A stretch of 64,000 bases of DNA, taken from NCBI RefSeq assembly GCF_009762325.1, contig NZ_CP034348.1, positions 2,982,501 through 3,046,500 of the forward strand. Direction: 5' to 3'. Each line of letters starts with the position of its first letter. Within the stretch, counting starts at the first letter, position 1. This document shows positions 41,860-48,795 of the stretch, piece after piece. The notes below the pieces were generated by a model. That model saw only the letters and a program-made list of their open reading frames with translations, did no database searches and had not been told where the DNA came from. Source of the stretch: Roseovarius faecimaris (lineage in GTDB: Bacteria > Pseudomonadota > Alphaproteobacteria > Rhodobacterales > Rhodobacteraceae). Made by a program: the position numbers and the translations under genes.

Positions 41860-43143
41860 ATGATCAACAGCGCGCATACCGGCACGAACGGCGCCTATGA
41901 CGTGATCGTCATCGGCGCGGGCGCGGCGGGTCTTGCGGCCACCAGGAAGCTGTCCAGCGCGGGCGTGTCGGTGATCTGCCTTGAGGCCTCGGGGCGGATC
42001 GGGGGCCGGGCCCATACCGATCACCAAATCTTCGGCATCCCCTTCGACCGGGGCGCGCATTGGCTGCATGATTTCAAGCGCAATGCCTATGCCCGGATCG
42101 GCCGCAAACTGGGCTTCGATCTCTACAAGGTGCCCGAGCATTACCTGCTGCATGGTGCAGAGGACCCGGACCCGATCTGGGACATGTTCGACGCCATGGG
42201 CGATCACCTGAGCGCGGTGGCACAAAGCTCTGAGGACAAGCCCCTGTCAGAGGCGCTCGACCTGTTCCCCTGTGATGACCCCTGGGCGCGCACCGCACGG
42301 TTCATGCAATGCTTTCCCAACGCTCAGGATGAAACGGCCCTTTCCCTGCACGACTGGTACAATTACGAGGACGGACCCGACTGGTTCTGCAAACAGGGCT
42401 TCGGGGCGATTGTCGCAGCTTTCGGTGACGGGCTGCCGGTGCGGCTCAACACGCCCGTCACGGCCATCGCGCGCACCGCCGCCGGTGTGGAGGTCACAAG
42501 CAGCGCCGGCACGGCCCGTGCCCGCGCGGTCATCGTGACCGTCTCACAAGGCGTGCTCGCCGCCGAGGCGATCCGCTTCGACCCACCTCTCGGCAACGCC
42601 CGGCTCAGCGCCATCGACGGTATCCGCATGGGCCATTACAATCACAACGTCCTGCACCTCGCCCCCGGCGCGCTGCCGGTGCGGCCCGACACATGGATCA
42701 CCTACCGGATCACCGAAGAAAAACACGGCGCGCCGCAGGGCGGCGGGTTTCTCTGCGATGTGAGCGGTTCGGGCCTGACCTATTTCGAAACCTCCGGCAG
42801 TTTCGCCCGCGATCTGGAAGCGGCAGGCGAAAAGGCCGCTCTGGCCTATGCGACCGACACGCTGGCCGATCTTTTCGGTGCGGAAATCCGCAAGGCGGTG
42901 ATCAAGGGGCACGCGACGACCTATGGCCGGGATCCGCTGTTTCGCGGCTCCTATTCCGGTGCGCGTCCGGGGGCGGCGGCACAGCGCAAGACCCTGCGCC
43001 AGCCCCATGCCGACCGCATCCACTTTGCAGGCGAGGCCACACATCTCAGCCAGATGGCCACCGTCTCAGGCGCGCATAAATCCGGGCGCCGCGCGGCAAA
43101 GGCCGTGCTGGCACAGCTCCATGGGCCGGACCAAGTCAGCTAG
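41860..43143 (+). CDS. FAD-dependent amine oxidase family protein
   Basis: The 427-aa flavoprotein has the dinucleotide fold YDVIVIGAGAAGLAATRKL followed by GRIGGRAHTD, the second FAD motif of amine oxidases. The closing FAD motif is HFAGEATHLSQMATVSGAHKSGRRAA. A middle segment (WLHDFKRNAYARIG) and the active-site-side YSGARPG complete the fold. The family covers monoamine/polyamine oxidases and carotenoid-type desaturases; the GEATH ending favours amine oxidase. AAAGG lies eight bases upstream. Its stop overlaps the end of the puc-linked gene on the other strand. Confidence 0.85.
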   Translation: MINSAHTGTNGAYDVIVIGAGAAGLAATRKLSSAGVSVICLEASGRIGGRAHTDHQIFGIPFDRGAHWLHDFKRNAYARIGRKLGFDLYKVPEHYLLHGAEDPDPIWDMFDAMGDHLSAVAQSSEDKPLSEALDLFPCDDPWARTARFMQCFPNAQDETALSLHDWYNYEDGPDWFCKQGFGAIVAAFGDGLPVRLNTPVTAIARTAAGVEVTSSAGTARARAVIVTVSQGVLAAEAIRFDPPLGNARLSAIDGIRMGHYNHNVLHLAPGALPVRPDTWITYRITEEKHGAPQGGGFLCDVSGSGLTYFETSGSFARDLEAAGEKAALAYATDTLADLFGAEIRKAVIKGHATTYGRDPLFRGSYSGARPGAAAQRKTLRQPHADRIHFAGEATHLSQMATVSGAHKSGRRAAKAVLAQLHGPDQVS

Positions 43144-43823
43144 ACGCGGGTCGGCCAGTGCAGCAGCCGCGACAGGGTCAGCCCGCGAAACGTCTTGTTG
43201 CTGCGCTCTGTGCGCGTGACCAGCGGCATCGGCCAGAACCCGCGCGACACGAAGCGCCCGCCCCGAATGACCGAAGAGTTGCGCTCCTTGCGCGAGATCA
43301 GCGGCATGGGCCAGAAGGCGCGCGACACGTGGCGGCTTCCCCCGATGGCCGAGCGCCGGTCGCGCCGCGGGCTCAGCAGGCGCAGGCCCAACCCTTCCGA
43401 TATGGGCCGCCCTTCATACCTGCTTCGGTCGATCCGCATGGTCAGAAACAGCGGATGATCCTTCAGAATATTGGGCGCGTGGTCCGGCCCGTCGGGCATG
43501 TAATAGTCGTCGGTGATCCCCTTCACCGGGATCGCCTTGCGCTTGGCAAGCTCCGTGCGTGTGATCGTCGCTGCGGTCAGCGGCACATGCGTGGCCCGCA
43601 CCACAAGAAGCGCCCGGCCTTTCTTGAGCGCCTCGGCATAGGCGTCAATGGCGCTGTCATGCACCCCGGCGCGGCTCATCCTGGCCTTGAGATCGGTCTT
43701 GGCCCTGCCCGGCGGGGCCGGGATCAGGTCGATGGCGCGTCGGGGAAGGCGGCGATCAAGCAGCTTTTCCACCGCCTTGCGCGCCTCTTGTTCGTCGAAC
43801 AGGCGTGTGATGACTGTTGTCAT
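43140..43823 (-). CDS. puc-operon protein with YflT-like N-terminus and FWPMPL repeats
   Basis: The 227-aa protein overlaps the pucC stop by four bases (ATGA at 43820-43823), so it is the last gene of the puc operon. Residues 1-45 (VITRLFDEQEARKAVEKLLD ... IDLIPAPP) resemble the start of YflT/general-stress domains. Residues of about 160-227 are Arg/Trp-rich and repeat: VSRAFWPMPLISRKER, then VSRGFWPMPLVTRTER, then a decayed LSRLLHWPTRV. There is no signal peptide or membrane helix. I know no characterised homologue. A role in LH2 assembly or stability is inferred only from coupling. Confidence 0.7.
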   Translation of the reverse strand: MTTVITRLFDEQEARKAVEKLLDRRLPRRAIDLIPAPPGRAKTDLKARMSRAGVHDSAIDAYAEALKKGRALLVVRATHVPLTAATITRTELAKRKAIPVKGITDDYYMPDGPDHAPNILKDHPLFLTMRIDRSRYEGRPISEGLGLRLLSPRRDRRSAIGGSRHVSRAFWPMPLISRKERNSSVIRGGRFVSRGFWPMPLVTRTERSNKTFRGLTLSRLLHWPTRV

Positions 43824-45289
43824 GGGACCTCCACTGCGGTTTGTCTGCTGTCCGGCAGCGCCCTGCCGGTCTGGGATTGGCCTGTCTCGTCCGCGCGCGG
43901 CTTCAACACCGGAAGCAGCACCGCGCAGGCAAGCGCCAGGCACAGGATCTCGATCGAGAATACTATAGTGTAGGGCGTTTCCACCGCCGCGCCAGCGCCA
44001 GCGCCAGCGCCAGCGCCAGGATCAAGCCCGACGATCACATCGCGCACAAGACCCGCAAGCGCGATGCCGATACCCGCCGCTGTTGCCTGAACCGCGCCCC
44101 ACGCCCCCAATGCCAGGCCAACGCGATCCTTTTGGGTTGCGCGCAGCGTCGCGGTCAGCGTGGCATGACCAAAAAGCCCCGTGCCCAGCCCGGTCAGCGC
44201 CGTGCCCAGCAAAAAGGCCGGCACCCCGGCCCCAAGCGAGGAGGCAATGATCGCCGCGAAGCCGACAATGCCCAGAAGCGTGCCAAGCACGCTGATGCGG
44301 CCTGGCTGCGCGGCCCGGTCCAGCGCCCAGGACGCATAGGCAAAACCCAGCAGCGTGCCGCTGGCAAAAAGCGCGGTCAGCTTGGTCGTGCTGGCCACCG
44401 ACAGACCAAGCGCCTGCCCGCCATAAGGTTCCAGCAAAACATCGGCCATGCCGAACCCGAACGTGCCAAGCGCGATCACAAAGAGAAGCCGCTTCATGCC
44501 CGGGGCCTGCATCAGCTCCGCGAAGGCATCGGCAAAACGCTGGCGCCGCATGGTTTTCATCGCTTGCGCACGCTCCCGGTCACGCGCTTCCTGTTTCCAC
44601 AAGGCCAGCAGGTTCAGCGCCACGGTCACCACCGCCGCGCCCTGGATCACCTGGATCAGCCGCCCGGGCGTATAGGGCTGCAACAGCGCCCCGAAGACAA
44701 GCGCACTCACCACCATGCCCAACAGCAGCATCGCATACATCAGACCCACCACCTTGGGCTGGTCGTCTTCTTTCACAAGGTCCGTCGCCAAAGCCAGGCC
44801 AACGGTCTGCACCATATGCACCCCGGCCCCGACCAGCAGAAAGGCAAGCGCCGCCGAACTGATCCCCAGCCAGCGCGGCGCATCCACTGCCTCGGCATAG
44901 CCCGACAGCACCAGAAGCGAGAACGGCATGATGGCAAACCCGCCAAACTGATACATCGTGCCTTTCCAGATGTAAGGCACACGCCGCAGCCCCAGCGCCG
45001 AGACATGCTGATCCGATCTGAACCCGATCAGCGTGCGGAACGGGGCAAAGACCAGCGGCAGCGCCAGCATCATCGCCACCAGCGAGGCAGGCACGTCAAG
45101 CTCGACGATCATCACCCGGTTGAGCGTGCCGATCAGCAGCACCAGCGCCATGCCCACCGTGACCTGAAACAGCGAAAGGCGCAGAATCCGCGACAGCGGC
45201 ACCTCCGCCGTGGCCACATCGACAAAGGGCAGGTATTTCGGCCCGAGGGCCGTCAGTTTGCGCATGGCAAAGCTGCGATAGTCGAACAT
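43820..45289 (-). CDS. pucC: PucC-family light-harvesting 2 assembly/BChl delivery protein
   Basis: The 489-aa protein is a major-facilitator-like membrane protein of the PucC/LhaA/BCD family with 12 predicted helices. It has VEVPLSRILRLSLFQVTVGMA-type N-terminal sequence, APFRTLIGFRSDQHVSALGLRRVPYIWKGTMYQFGG (family signature), and LLEPYGGQALGLSV. PucC is needed for LH2 assembly in the inner membrane. A Gly-Ala run near the C-terminus (PGAGAGAGAGAA) is encoded by a hexanucleotide repeat. The start at 45289 is chosen because GAGG lies nine bases upstream; 45295 is possible. It follows pucA after an intercistronic hairpin. Confidence 0.93.
   Translation of the reverse strand: MFDYRSFAMRKLTALGPKYLPFVDVATAEVPLSRILRLSLFQVTVGMALVLLIGTLNRVMIVELDVPASLVAMMLALPLVFAPFRTLIGFRSDQHVSALGLRRVPYIWKGTMYQFGGFAIMPFSLLVLSGYAEAVDAPRWLGISSAALAFLLVGAGVHMVQTVGLALATDLVKEDDQPKVVGLMYAMLLLGMVVSALVFGALLQPYTPGRLIQVIQGAAVVTVALNLLALWKQEARDRERAQAMKTMRRQRFADAFAELMQAPGMKRLLFVIALGTFGFGMADVLLEPYGGQALGLSVASTTKLTALFASGTLLGFAYASWALDRAAQPGRISVLGTLLGIVGFAAIIASSLGAGVPAFLLGTALTGLGTGLFGHATLTATLRATQKDRVGLALGAWGAVQATAAGIGIALAGLVRDVIVGLDPGAGAGAGAGAAVETPYTIVFSIEILCLALACAVLLPVLKPRADETGQSQTGRALPDSRQTAVEVP
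43991..44019. repeat. hexanucleotide tandem repeat inside pucC
   Basis: GCCAGC is repeated four times, with a partial fifth unit, on the plus strand. On the coding strand it encodes alternating Gly-Ala in a loop between the last two helices of PucC. Such a repeat can change length by slippage without shifting frame. Confidence 0.85.
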
Positions 45290-45358
45290 GGTCATCACCC
45301 TCTGCGCCGCCCGGGCGTCATCGCCGGCCGCGCGTCTGATCGGTGAGCAAAAGCGAAC

Positions 45359-45389: not shown

Positions 45390-45725
45390 TCAGTTCTGGA
45401 GGGTCTGCACCGAGGCCAGCGTCGTCTCGGGCCGTTCCAGCACCGCCTTCATGACCGTGCCATCCGACAGGATCAACGTCACATCGCCGCTGCCGTCCTG
45501 TGATGGAACCACATAATTCACCTTGGCGGTGTCCGCTTTCTCCTGCGTCATGGCGGCGGTCTGATCCCCCGCGCCAATCGGCTGGCCGGACAGGTAATCG
45601 GACACCCAGGACGTATTGCTCAACACCGCCACATGCACGGCAAACGAGCTGACAGCCACAGCGCTCAGAAACAGCGGGATGCCCACGGTCGGCTTCACAA
45701 CGAGCCACATTTTCGCATTATTCAT
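45390..45725 (-). CDS. pucA: LH2 antenna alpha subunit with long C-terminal extension
   Basis: The 111-aa protein starts MNNAKMWLVVKPTVGIPLFL, the standard LH2 alpha beginning. It has one membrane helix with the bacteriochlorophyll-ligand His31 (FAVHVAVLSNTSW). By alignment to the Rhodoblastus acidophilus alpha chain, positions 44-45 are Tyr-Leu, where B850 forms have Tyr-Trp and B820 forms Phe-Leu. The core ends near Gly47, and about 64 extra residues follow (QPIGAGDQTAAM ... VQTLQN), predicted periplasmic, polar and beta-rich. Usual LH2 alpha chains are 50-60 residues. AGGGAGG precedes the start, 12 bases after the pucB stop. Confidence 0.93.
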   Translation of the reverse strand: MNNAKMWLVVKPTVGIPLFLSAVAVSSFAVHVAVLSNTSWVSDYLSGQPIGAGDQTAAMTQEKADTAKVNYVVPSQDGSGDVTLILSDGTVMKAVLERPETTLASVQTLQN

Positions 45726-45737
45726 GACAGGCCTCCC

Positions 45738-45890
45738 TTATCCAAGCCAGGGCGTTGTAACCGCCACCAGCACATGCGCGATTGCCGCGATCACACCAAA
45801 CACCCGCGTGCCGTCAATGAGGTAGCTATGCACCTCCTCGGCTTCTTCGAGCGTCAGGCCGGTCGGCCAAACTTTATCACTGTCTGCCAT
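45738..45890 (-). CDS. pucB: LH2 antenna beta subunit
   Basis: The 50-aa protein has the LH2 beta signature GLTLEEAEEVHSYLIDGTRVF, with His21 and Arg29 at the positions lining the B800 pigment. A membrane helix follows with the B850-type ligand His39 (AHVLVAVTTPWLG) and the conserved PWLG end. It pairs with PucA in the ring antenna of the intracytoplasmic membrane. The ATG at 45890 is chosen because GGAGG lies seven bases upstream; the longer frame upstream crosses the promoter palindromes. Confidence 0.96.
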   Translation of the reverse strand: MADSDKVWPTGLTLEEAEEVHSYLIDGTRVFGVIAAIAHVLVAVTTPWLG

Positions 45891-46274: not shown

Positions 46275-48719
46275 TCAGACCTTCACGCGTTCGGCCTTGG
46301 GGTCATACATCGGGCGCAGGCTCACCTCGGCGCGCACGCGTGAGCCGCAGACGTCGATCTCATAGGTCGAGCCCAGCACATCGGCCGCAGTTTCGCCCTC
46401 GCAGGGCACATAGCCCATGCCGATGGCGGCCCCCAGCGTGTGCCCGTAATTGCCCGAGCTGAGATAGCCCACATACGCGCCATCCCGGATAATCGGTTCG
46501 TTATGGTAAAGCAGCGGCTCCGGATCGGTCAGCCTGAACTGCACCATGCGCGCTTTCGGGCCGCTCTCCTTGCGCGCCGCCACGGCGGCCTTGCCGATGA
46601 AATCGGGCTTGGAGAGGTCCACCGCAAAGCCGAGCCCCGCGTCGATGACGTTATCCTCGCAGGTGATGTCATGGCCGAAATGGCGGAACGCCTTCTCGAT
46701 CCGGCAGCTGTCCATCATATGCATCCCGCACAGCTTCAGCCCGTGGTCCTGCCCGGCCTCCCACAGCGTCTCGAACACATGGCCCGACATCTCGGCGGGG
46801 ATATACAGCTCCCAGCCCAGCTCGCCCACATATGACACGCGGTGCGCGCGCGCCAGGCCCATGCCGATCTCGATCTCCTGCGCCGTGCCGAACGGATTCA
46901 CCTCGTTCGACCAGTCGGCGGGCGAGACAGCTTGCAAAAGCTGGCGAGCGTTCGGCCCCATCACCGCCAGCACCCCTTCGGTCATGGTCACATCCGTCAC
47001 CACCGCGCTGAAGCCGCCCATATTGCGCCGCAGCCAGGTCTGATCCGCCAGCCGCGTCGCCGCCGGTGTCACCACCAGATAGGCCGTCTCGGTCAGGCGC
47101 GTGACGGTCACATCCGCCTCGATCCCGCCGCGCGCGTTCAGGAACTGCGTATAGACGATCTTGCCCACCGGCACGCTCATATTGGCGCCGCAGACATGGT
47201 TCAGGAAGGCCTCCGCCTCCGGCCCCTCGACGCGCAGCTTGCCGAAGCTGGTCATGTCATACATGCCCACATTCTCGCGCACGGCCTTATGCTCGGCGGC
47301 AGCATTCTCGAACCAGTTCTGCCGCTTCCAGCTATAGCGATACTCCCGCTCCTGCCCGTCATTGGCATACCAGTTGGCGCGCTCCCAACCCGCCACTTCA
47401 CCCATCACCGCGCCCCGCTCCAGCAGGTGATGATGGAACGGCGTGCGCCTCACTCCGCGCGCCGTGGCCTTCTGGCGATAGGGGAAGTGATCGGCATAGA
47501 GCAGGCCCAGCGTCTCCTTCGAGCGCTCGAAAAGGTAGTGCTTGTTGCCCTGGAAGGGCTGCATGCGGCTGATATCCACATCGCCCAGATCAAACGGTTT
47601 CTCGCCACTGTCCATCCACTGGCTCAGGGCATGGCCCGCACCCCCCGCCGACTGGATCCCGATGGAGTTGAATCCGCAGGCGACCCAGACATTGTCCATC
47701 TCCGGCGCAAGACCCAGGTGATAGGCATCGTCGGGCGTGAAGCTCTCAGGCCCGTTAAAGAAGGTGTGAATGCCCGCCTCCGCCAGCATCGGCAGCCGGT
47801 TGCAGGCATTTTCCAGGATCGGCTCGAAATGGTCGAAATCCTCCGGCAGCTGGTCGAATTCGAAACTGTCGGGAATGCCGTTCATGCCCCAGGGCTTGGC
47901 ATTCGGCTCGAACGCGCCCAAGAGCATCTTGCCCGCGTCTTCCTTGTAATAGGCGCATTCATCCGGCACCCGCAGGACCGGCATCTGGGTCAGCCCCTCG
48001 ATGGCTTCGGTGACGATATAGAAATGCTCGCAGGCATGCAGCGGCACGTTGATCCCCGCCATGCGGCCCACTTCATGGCCCCACATGCCGGCACAGTTCA
48101 CGATCGCCTCACAGGCAATATGGCCCCGGTCGCCATCCTCGGCCACCCAGTCCACCCCGGTCACGCGGCGGCCGGTCCGGGCGATACCCGTCACCTTCAC
48201 GCGCTCCTTGACGGTCGCTCCGTTCTGACGCGCACCCTTGGCCAGCGCCAGCGCGATATTGGCCGGGTCCGCCTGCCCGTCGGTGGGCAGCCAGACACCG
48301 CCCTTCACCCCGTCGAGATTGATATGCTCATAGCGTTCCTTGACCTCCGCCGGGCTCAGCTCTTCGACCGGCACGCCGAAGGCGCGCGCCATGGCGGCGG
48401 CGCGATAGAGCTCCTCCAGCCGCTCTGCGGTCAGCGCGGCAGACACCGACCCCACCTGCCGCATGCCCGTGGCCACGCCGGTCTCTTCCTCCAGACCCAT
48501 GTAAAGCTCGGCCGAATAGCGCGCCAGCTTGGTCATGTTCGAGGTTGCGCGCAGCTGACCGATCAGCCCTGCCGCGTGCCAGGTGGTGCCGCTCGTGAGC
48601 TGCTTGCGCTCCAGCAGAACCACGTCGCTCCAGCCCAGCTTGGCCAGGTGATAGGCCACCGAGCAGCCCACGACGCCGCCGCCAATGATGACCACGCGGG
48701 CCTGTTGAGGTAGTTCCAT
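46275..48719 (-). CDS. dimethylglycine/sarcosine dehydrogenase-like flavoprotein (FAD + GcvT)
   Basis: The 814-aa protein has an N-terminal FAD domain (ARVVIIGGGVVGCSVAYHLAKLGW) with His48 in TTWHAAG, the position for covalent FAD in DMGDH-type enzymes. Its C-terminal half is an aminomethyltransferase (GcvT) fold ending in a GELGWELYIPAEM-type and GNYGHTLGAAIGMGYVP region that binds tetrahydrofolate. Such enzymes oxidatively demethylate dimethylglycine or sarcosine and pass the carbon to THF. GGAG lies eight bases upstream of 48719. It is the last gene of the 55.6-46.3 kb operon and a paralogue of the gene at 50756-53203. Confidence 0.85.
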   Translation of the reverse strand: MELPQQARVVIIGGGVVGCSVAYHLAKLGWSDVVLLERKQLTSGTTWHAAGLIGQLRATSNMTKLARYSAELYMGLEEETGVATGMRQVGSVSAALTAERLEELYRAAAMARAFGVPVEELSPAEVKERYEHINLDGVKGGVWLPTDGQADPANIALALAKGARQNGATVKERVKVTGIARTGRRVTGVDWVAEDGDRGHIACEAIVNCAGMWGHEVGRMAGINVPLHACEHFYIVTEAIEGLTQMPVLRVPDECAYYKEDAGKMLLGAFEPNAKPWGMNGIPDSFEFDQLPEDFDHFEPILENACNRLPMLAEAGIHTFFNGPESFTPDDAYHLGLAPEMDNVWVACGFNSIGIQSAGGAGHALSQWMDSGEKPFDLGDVDISRMQPFQGNKHYLFERSKETLGLLYADHFPYRQKATARGVRRTPFHHHLLERGAVMGEVAGWERANWYANDGQEREYRYSWKRQNWFENAAAEHKAVRENVGMYDMTSFGKLRVEGPEAEAFLNHVCGANMSVPVGKIVYTQFLNARGGIEADVTVTRLTETAYLVVTPAATRLADQTWLRRNMGGFSAVVTDVTMTEGVLAVMGPNARQLLQAVSPADWSNEVNPFGTAQEIEIGMGLARAHRVSYVGELGWELYIPAEMSGHVFETLWEAGQDHGLKLCGMHMMDSCRIEKAFRHFGHDITCEDNVIDAGLGFAVDLSKPDFIGKAAVAARKESGPKARMVQFRLTDPEPLLYHNEPIIRDGAYVGYLSSGNYGHTLGAAIGMGYVPCEGETAADVLGSTYEIDVCGSRVRAEVSLRPMYDPKAERVKV

Positions 48720-48795
48720 TTCCGTCTCTCCCATTTGCGAGGCGGGCTGTCAGGCCCGACGAGCCACTCGCCGCCCCTTTACATGTGCGTCTCGT

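Follow-up and report, generated by a model that had tools for sequence, protein, structure and literature searches.

What kind of protein is encoded directly behind pucC in the 64,000-nucleotide stretch of Roseovarius faecimaris DNA analysed here (the window), and what might it do for the LH2 antenna? A sequence-only reading had placed a gene at 43140-43823, leaving its strand unstated, and had described it as unknown and unlike any characterised puc gene. The coordinates are right and the gene is read from the minus strand (43823→43140, 227 residues), but by homology it is a relative of a gene already described, pucDE of Rhodobacter capsulatus. The features on which the analysis is built are the following:

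43140..43823, minus strand: pucDE-like gene, 227 aa, stop codon included (reading frame and homologues)
43143..43475, minus strand: C-terminal repeat ribbon, residues 117-227 (PucE part), predicted extended (AlphaFold)
43143..43175, minus strand: unit 5, terminal, LSRLLHWPTRV, residues 217-227, S218 (repeat analysis)
43203..43250, minus strand: unit 4, VSRGFWPMPLVTRTER, residues 192-207, S193 (repeat analysis)
43281..43328, minus strand: unit 3, VSRAFWPMPLISRKER, residues 166-181, S167 (repeat analysis)
43359..43406, minus strand: unit 2, PISEGLGLRLLSPRRD, residues 140-155, S142 (repeat analysis)
43437..43463, minus strand: element 1, KDHPLFLTM, residues 121-129, degenerate (sequence)
43491..43823, minus strand: N-terminal folded domain, residues 1-111 (PucD part), predicted ferredoxin-like / PII-like (AlphaFold and fold search)
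43820..43823, minus strand: ATGA overlap of the pucC stop and the start of the pucDE-like gene (read from sequence)
43824..43834, minus strand: ribosome-binding-site-like GTGGAGGTCCC ahead of the pucDE-like ATG (sequence)
43820..45295, minus strand: pucC (PUCC, PF03209, E 5e-143)
45390..45725, minus strand: pucA, LH2 alpha with C-terminal extension, 111 aa (LHC, PF00556, E 6e-12)
45738..45890, minus strand: pucB, LH2 beta (LHC, PF00556, E 1e-9, and sequence)

The ATGA overlap had been noted before and can be seen in the sequence, with the ATG of the pucDE-like gene at 43823-43821 and the pucC stop at 43822-43820; a GGAGG stands immediately upstream of this ATG. The genes pucB, pucA and pucC all lie upstream and are co-directional. 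Here, the ATG that follows the listed GTG was taken as the pucC start, and the placement of the pucB start at MADSDKV is our choice.

Further observations concern the surroundings of the gene. The window pucA (45390-45725, minus strand) encodes a long C-terminal alpha extension that contains a VTLILSDGTVMKAVLE-like stretch. Similar extensions occur in several of the carriers read (L032, L066, L068, L077 and L126), and are absent from R. capsulatus and two Rhodoblastus carriers as well as, in four genomes that have no pucDE-like gene, from the alphas located near pucC. Upstream of the puc operon, positions 46275-48734 (minus strand) encode, by reading from the sequence alone, a protein of 819 aa that resembles FAD oxidoreductases and whose C-terminal half is glycine-cleavage-T-like.

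Homology to PucDE of Rhodobacter capsulatus

The window protein aligns over its full length with the proteins of R. capsulatus SP108, R. capsulatus DSM 1710 and R. viridis, with 30-31 % identity. In all three loci (L078-L080) the gene after pucC is a single uninterrupted frame of 232 aa, pucC lies around 80 bases upstream, and LH alpha/beta genes are present. Both the position after pucC and the layout, i.e. a head followed by repeats, are the same as in the window. R. capsulatus likewise has four S-type units, spaced 25, 27 and 27 residues apart; the window units are the cleaner repeats.

Tichy et al. reportedly described in 1989 two open reading frames after pucC, D (113 codons) and E (118 codons), and are said to have assigned a 14-kDa LH-II subunit to E by its N-terminus and peptides. 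We take PucE (118 codons), which has the length of R. capsulatus residues 115-232, to be the 14-kDa gamma subunit of isolated LH2, and its product presumably corresponds to the ribbon alone. In the genome sequences, R. capsulatus M115-232 comprises 118 residues and 13.5 kDa, and residues 113-227 of the window protein amount to 13.4 kDa. The title of the 1989 R. capsulatus paper and the pucC phenotype are cited in PMC4949548, and newer papers write pucDE or pucBACDE (PMC4634722, PMC9603517, PMC9231093). Since the window gene is homologous to the R. capsulatus gene after pucC, which in print is pucDE, it is, as judged by alignment, a PucDE homologue, and its repeat half is PucE.

In R. capsulatus a separate start of PucE may exist, i.e. 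an ATG at codon 115 with a GAGG beginning 15 bases upstream. Because the window protein, in contrast to its R. capsulatus counterpart (M115), has no methionine at the border between head and ribbon, such a start is not seen there; the window protein would then either be processed by proteolysis or not be cleaved. Our searches found no structure for R. capsulatus PucE.

We propose that the window gene product is probably an accessory subunit of LH2, of the gamma type and from the PucDE family, that clamps part of the LH2 ring. The sections below follow the evidence bearing on this proposal and on its alternatives.

Distribution and linkage to LH2 operons

Among the 295 genomes of the home family, a homologue was found in 35 at an E-value of 0.001. 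A PUCC match is present in 140 of the 295 (136 over the curated cut-off) and absent from 155, and carriers make up 35 of the 140 PUCC-positive and none of the 155 PUCC-negative genomes (Fisher p 3.7e-13), PUCC being a loose phototroph marker that also matches in nine of 14 control genomes. The outcome against which the sequence-only reading had been staked, i.e. homologues equally common in non-phototrophs and unlinked to pucC, is thus not what this marker reveals. PUCC proteins are also found beside reaction-centre and bchP-bchG genes, and for this reason it is three or more PUCC matches that suggest an LH2 operon; counted by hand, 33 of the 35 carriers reach this number, versus 16 of the 105 other PUCC-positive genomes.

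The suspected link to pucC and LH2 is equally apparent at the level of single loci. All but two of the 38 home-family matches lie in a pucC operon, either adjoining pucC or, in one case, following a tandem copy. The remaining two (L127 and L128) are second, long copies in genomes that also hold a pucC-linked short copy; no pucC match was found within the 9 kb fetched for L127, nor within 7 kb for L128, the contig of which gives only 1.1 kb upstream. A second scan, of contig records, yielded 57 loci, all with a pucC match, which is located upstream on the same strand in 51 and runs in the opposite direction in six. Genes for LH alpha and beta were present in 55 of these loci, the other two (L031 and L056) being cut at that contig end. 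The carriers comprise R. capsulatus SP108 and DSM 1710 as well as R. viridis, and further records are titled Rhodovulum, Roseovarius, Tabrizicola, Roseibium, Neomegalonema, Rhodoblastus acidophilus and Rhodoblastus sphagnicola; plasmid records gave no homologue match. As eight of the 57 proteins are identical to home-family ones, the 87 pooled proteins include 79 distinct ones.

Two operons differ in their make-up. In L142 (1196-1871), one of the 36 pucC-operon copies, a frame-broken and shortened long-class gene next to pucC is apparently decaying, and in L126 (genome G235) the operon reads pucB-pucA-pucC-long copy-short copy, with both family classes in tandem.

Beyond the home family, a class-wide profile search matched 21 of 385 genomes, the window's own included, and seven of the 20 other matches have a pucC match within the 1.5-kb flank. 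Nine loci were followed up over stretches of 8.6-15 kb, i.e. seven with repeats on sight together with L089 and L090. LH alpha, LH beta and a pucC match are present in all nine other-family loci, the pucC match of L148 being a distant one (29 %). In seven of the nine (L147, L150-L155) the gene is located between pucBA and pucC, with pucC 2.3 kb further on from the repeat gene in L147, and in L148 and L149 the repeat gene opposes the direction of pucBA. In L154 and L155 the repeat gene is flanked on either side by an LH alpha/beta pair (pucBA-gene-pucBA-pucC). Linkage to LH2 thereby extends to at least seven alphaproteobacterial families (f1, f16, f39, f65, f91, f96 and f123), with f99 as a probable further one.

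The translational coupling to pucC in the window, the pucC overlap with the same 3-base offset in six loci (L064, L066, L070, L072, L073 and L081), and a linkage to pucC that is kept even when the genes are divergent (6/57) might also point to an LH2 assembly factor acting with PucC, whose repeats would hold nascent alpha/beta or bacteriochlorophyll and then leave the finished complex. To our knowledge, the LH2 structures of other species contain no such chain, which counts in favour of an assembly factor. Against it stand the seven other-family loci with the gene after pucBA and before pucC, the C-terminal half of the R. capsulatus protein, which was presumably isolated as part of LH2, and the constant number of eight units in the long class (see below), which is more in keeping with a structural match than with a chaperone acting transiently. 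Taken together, we regard an assembly factor as unlikely.

LH2-type pucC loci without a pucDE-like gene also exist. Sixteen genomes combine at least three PUCC matches with no homologue, and 12 of these were looked at in one or two PUCC loci each (16 of 20 regions; G139, G159, G216 and G233 were left out). Four of them (G051, G091, G252 and G111; loci L111, L112, L114 and L116) harbour an LH2-type pucC with 56-60 % identity to that of the window and an LH alpha nearby, and three of the four an LH beta as well (recognised by eye in L114; none was found in L112). In the other eight genomes the pucC copy fetched is only 48-52 % identical and no LH genes were recognised. The four loci indicate that the pucDE-like gene is not needed for LH2 and, as such genomes exist, a PucDE protein would rather tune or stabilise the complex.

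Repeat string and folded head

The tandem FWPMPL copies reported for the C-terminal third are present as VSRAFWPMPLISRKER (S167) and VSRGFWPMPLVTRTER (S193), 26 residues apart. The best 16-residue self-match of the protein has 12 identities, a value reached by none of 400 whole-protein shuffles (maximum 8), and at the DNA level a 73-nt direct repeat, 79 % identical, has an offset of 78 nt (26 codons). The third, decayed copy likewise exists, joined by a fourth unit and a preceding element: the weaker flanking units are PISEGLGLRLLSPRR (S142) and TLSRLLHWPTRV (S218), and the core of element 1, DHPLFLT (residues 122-128), precedes the repeat units and is kept in relatives. The unit serines thus stand at 142, 167, 193 and 218, with spacings of 25, 26 and 25, and the unit core of the window protein is S-x-x-F-[W/G]-P-x-P-L-[LI]. 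The half that carries these units (residues 113-227) is very basic, with a pI of 12.0.

A folded head followed by a few to about 13 repeat units is the layout of the whole family, and the tail aligns in register and is conserved from member to member. Among the tabulated short members, the units are mostly 25-27 residues apart, some units of L004, L005, L007 and L045 being too worn for the search pattern. The long class is built of 25-residue units (RMANWPIPLISRRKP...), with eight units in all eight complete cases, i.e. six counted by pattern (L018, L025, L026, L027, L028 and L128) and two by eye (L126 and L139, where the pattern alone found 6 and 7), with cases that are broken or cut by the contig end excluded; in five aligned long-class proteins the fifth unit is an odd WPFP[LH]LI[ND]G. 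Two Rhodoblastus members have 9-10 S-units spaced 25 and 34, and a third (L086) is short. The protein encoded at positions 4264-5361 of L127 is 365 aa long and contains about 13 units (HKFMAKFPFGHIVPG) with a spacing of mostly 15 residues; the contig-cut L030 is of this kind too.

Across 68 of the 79 distinct proteins, 158 S-type units share the core S-x-x-F/L-G/W-...-L; since the serine and the core positions after it are imposed by the search pattern, how often they occur carries no weight as evidence. In the long class, alanine takes the place of the unit serine in 41 of 41 units, this residue too being fixed by the pattern. Of the other-family C-termini, four of seven are clearly periodic at 16 or 32 residues, the value at 16 being reached by 0-1 of 2000 shuffles; a fifth has a weaker period (11/2000) and the other two have none (140 and 243 of 2000).

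A string of this kind could also belong to a membrane-organising linker whose repeats would connect adjacent LH2 (or LH1) rings or curve the membrane instead of girdling one ring. The strongly basic, extended repeat half would suit such a linker, as would the second long copies L127 and L128 with no pucC match in the stretch fetched. However, unit spacings of 16 and of 25-26 residues are found repeatedly, and the ring-hugging gamma ribbon has a period of 16 per alpha-beta pair, so that we consider a linker very unlikely.

AlphaFold, run with 43 sequences, predicts the head with confidence, the block means over residues 1-110 being 81-96, and the tail as extended (block means 47-65), with no confident ribbon structure and no long helix in the repeat half of the window protein. 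For a Rhodoblastus member the head is predicted to be folded and the repeats mostly have a pLDDT of 20-30. The fold search with the head returned the common ferredoxin-like arrangement, with the best Z of 7.8 to PII proteins, and Foldseek gave nothing with an E-value under 0.001. No function was inferred from the head fold.

Pfam and NCBIfam assign no family to the window protein (Pfam: none at E up to 1), and for the 43 members they gave nothing above cut-off, only weak and mostly single matches, of which YflT was the commonest. This profile (PF11181) matches the head weakly in five of the 43 members (best E 0.0029), and the class-wide search also brings in YflT-type proteins, one of which, run against Pfam, passes the YflT cut-off. 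One might accordingly see a YflT-like stress protein that came to lie in the operon by chance, its tail being a low-complexity membrane anchor. In contrast, the tail sequence is maintained in register among members, no YflT match is obtained with the window protein, and the weak matches of the members remain below cut-off by their E-values. Moreover, the 11 remaining class matches have no pucC match within about 1.5 kb, and among the nine of these that were read, seven are YflT-type proteins with a Gly-rich insert and two (L093 and L103) are, by reading, other proteins. PucDE lacks this insert, is fused to repeats and is linked to LH2, which makes a chance neighbour of the YflT kind extremely improbable.

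We now return to the LH2 subunit proposed above. In this model, the ferredoxin-like N-terminal domain would form a head, and the basic C-terminal string, with its roughly five units spaced by 25-26 residues, would lie flat at the cytoplasmic rim of LH2, probably running along the rim of the ring. The aromatic/proline core of each unit would plug between successive alpha-beta pairs, with a single unit for every pair, and the unit arginines would meet lipid head groups, so that about half of the ring would be clamped and the ring or its packing stabilised. The earlier suggestion that the motifs bind a membrane surface or pigment-protein partners is favoured indirectly, by the pI of 12.0, the predicted extended conformation and the like units in LH2 operons of other families. 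If the clamp is real, the textbook symmetric LH2 ring would in many species be a ring plus clamp, perhaps with extra pigment, and the unit number would be a readable trait.

Comparison with known antenna polypeptides

One known system speaks against an LH2 subunit. Rhodoblastus acidophilus DSM 137 carries a family member (L085), and we know of no such chain in the crystal structures of Rhodoblastus acidophilus LH2.

A close parallel is the gamma chain of Rps. palustris LH2. According to PMC9618040, it is a ribbon around six of the nine alpha-beta pairs, near the cytoplasmic side, with six repeats, the Ser of each holding a bacteriochlorophyll, and it is reported there as restricted to Rhodopseudomonas. 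The chain (RPA1495; PDB 7zcu chain S) has 97 residues and a 16-residue period. When the C-terminus of L105 was compared with 177,635 PDB sequences, this gamma came out on top with an E-value of 0.0022, the next being 1.4. In score controls with 29 queries, the summed score was reached by none of 1000 shuffles and by three of 1000 column-permuted gammas; for L105 alone, one of 1000 permuted gammas reached its score. The whole window protein matched designed proteins only, gamma being unlisted at E up to 10, and against gamma the window repeats gave an E-value of 31 and the R. capsulatus repeats one of 6500. A profile of seven C-termini (A6) found no match in PDB, which counts against the link. 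Searched with gamma, the 385 class genomes gave one match each in 10 genomes at E ≤0.05, with about 19 expected by chance; of three matches inspected, that in G539 is a family member, and L130 and L132 lie over unrelated reading frames. A search of 17 genomes of one family gave a single match, again to the G539 protein, and is not independent of the PDB match of L105 because the protein is the same.

In the literature searched, which left most subscription journals outside, no paper was found that links PucE to palustris gamma or names the PucE repeats. As far as searched, what appears to be new is that the PucE half is made of repeats, that the family is broad and has fixed unit counts, and that spacing and core motif form a bridge to the palustris ribbon. 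We see the PucDE family as a widespread and largely overlooked antenna family.

A bolder idea, which we put forward tentatively and hold to be possible but doubtful, is that PucDE and palustris gamma form one ancient class of antenna girdles, made from a headed precursor, with repeats that count alpha-beta pairs, a fixed unit number that sets ring coverage and one monomeric bacteriochlorophyll per unit. The short class would then contribute about five units, and the long class eight canonical units with two end elements. If so, many alphaproteobacterial LH2 complexes would be asymmetric, with pigments so far missed.

A second known system is the LH1 gamma of Blastochloris, described in PMC10214105 as sixteen separate chains, i.e. 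small extra polypeptides outside the LH1 ring. The likeness lies in the extra small polypeptides outside an antenna ring; the difference is that Blastochloris has sixteen chains on LH1, whereas the window would encode one multi-unit chain on LH2. A Blastochloris-type LH1 gamma was set aside because no long helix is predicted in the repeat half of the window protein.

With palustris gamma, the PucDE family shares a repeat string, a G-x-P-L-[LI] core and a link to LH2 (bound in gamma, by operon linkage in PucDE), and the 16-residue period is common to gamma and four of the seven relatives from other families. In contrast, palustris gamma has no head, while the window protein has a predicted folded head of 110 residues; the gamma spacing is 16 instead of 25-26, and the gamma spacers are of the KQEGEYKG type instead of arginine-rich. 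In palustris gamma the ligand Ser immediately precedes Gly, whereas the Ser of the window unit comes four residues ahead of the G/W position. It is likely that a protein of the PucDE family works like palustris gamma; that the two are one family is, on the sequence comparisons made here, unproven. R. capsulatus PucE and palustris gamma are thereby joined in a testable idea.
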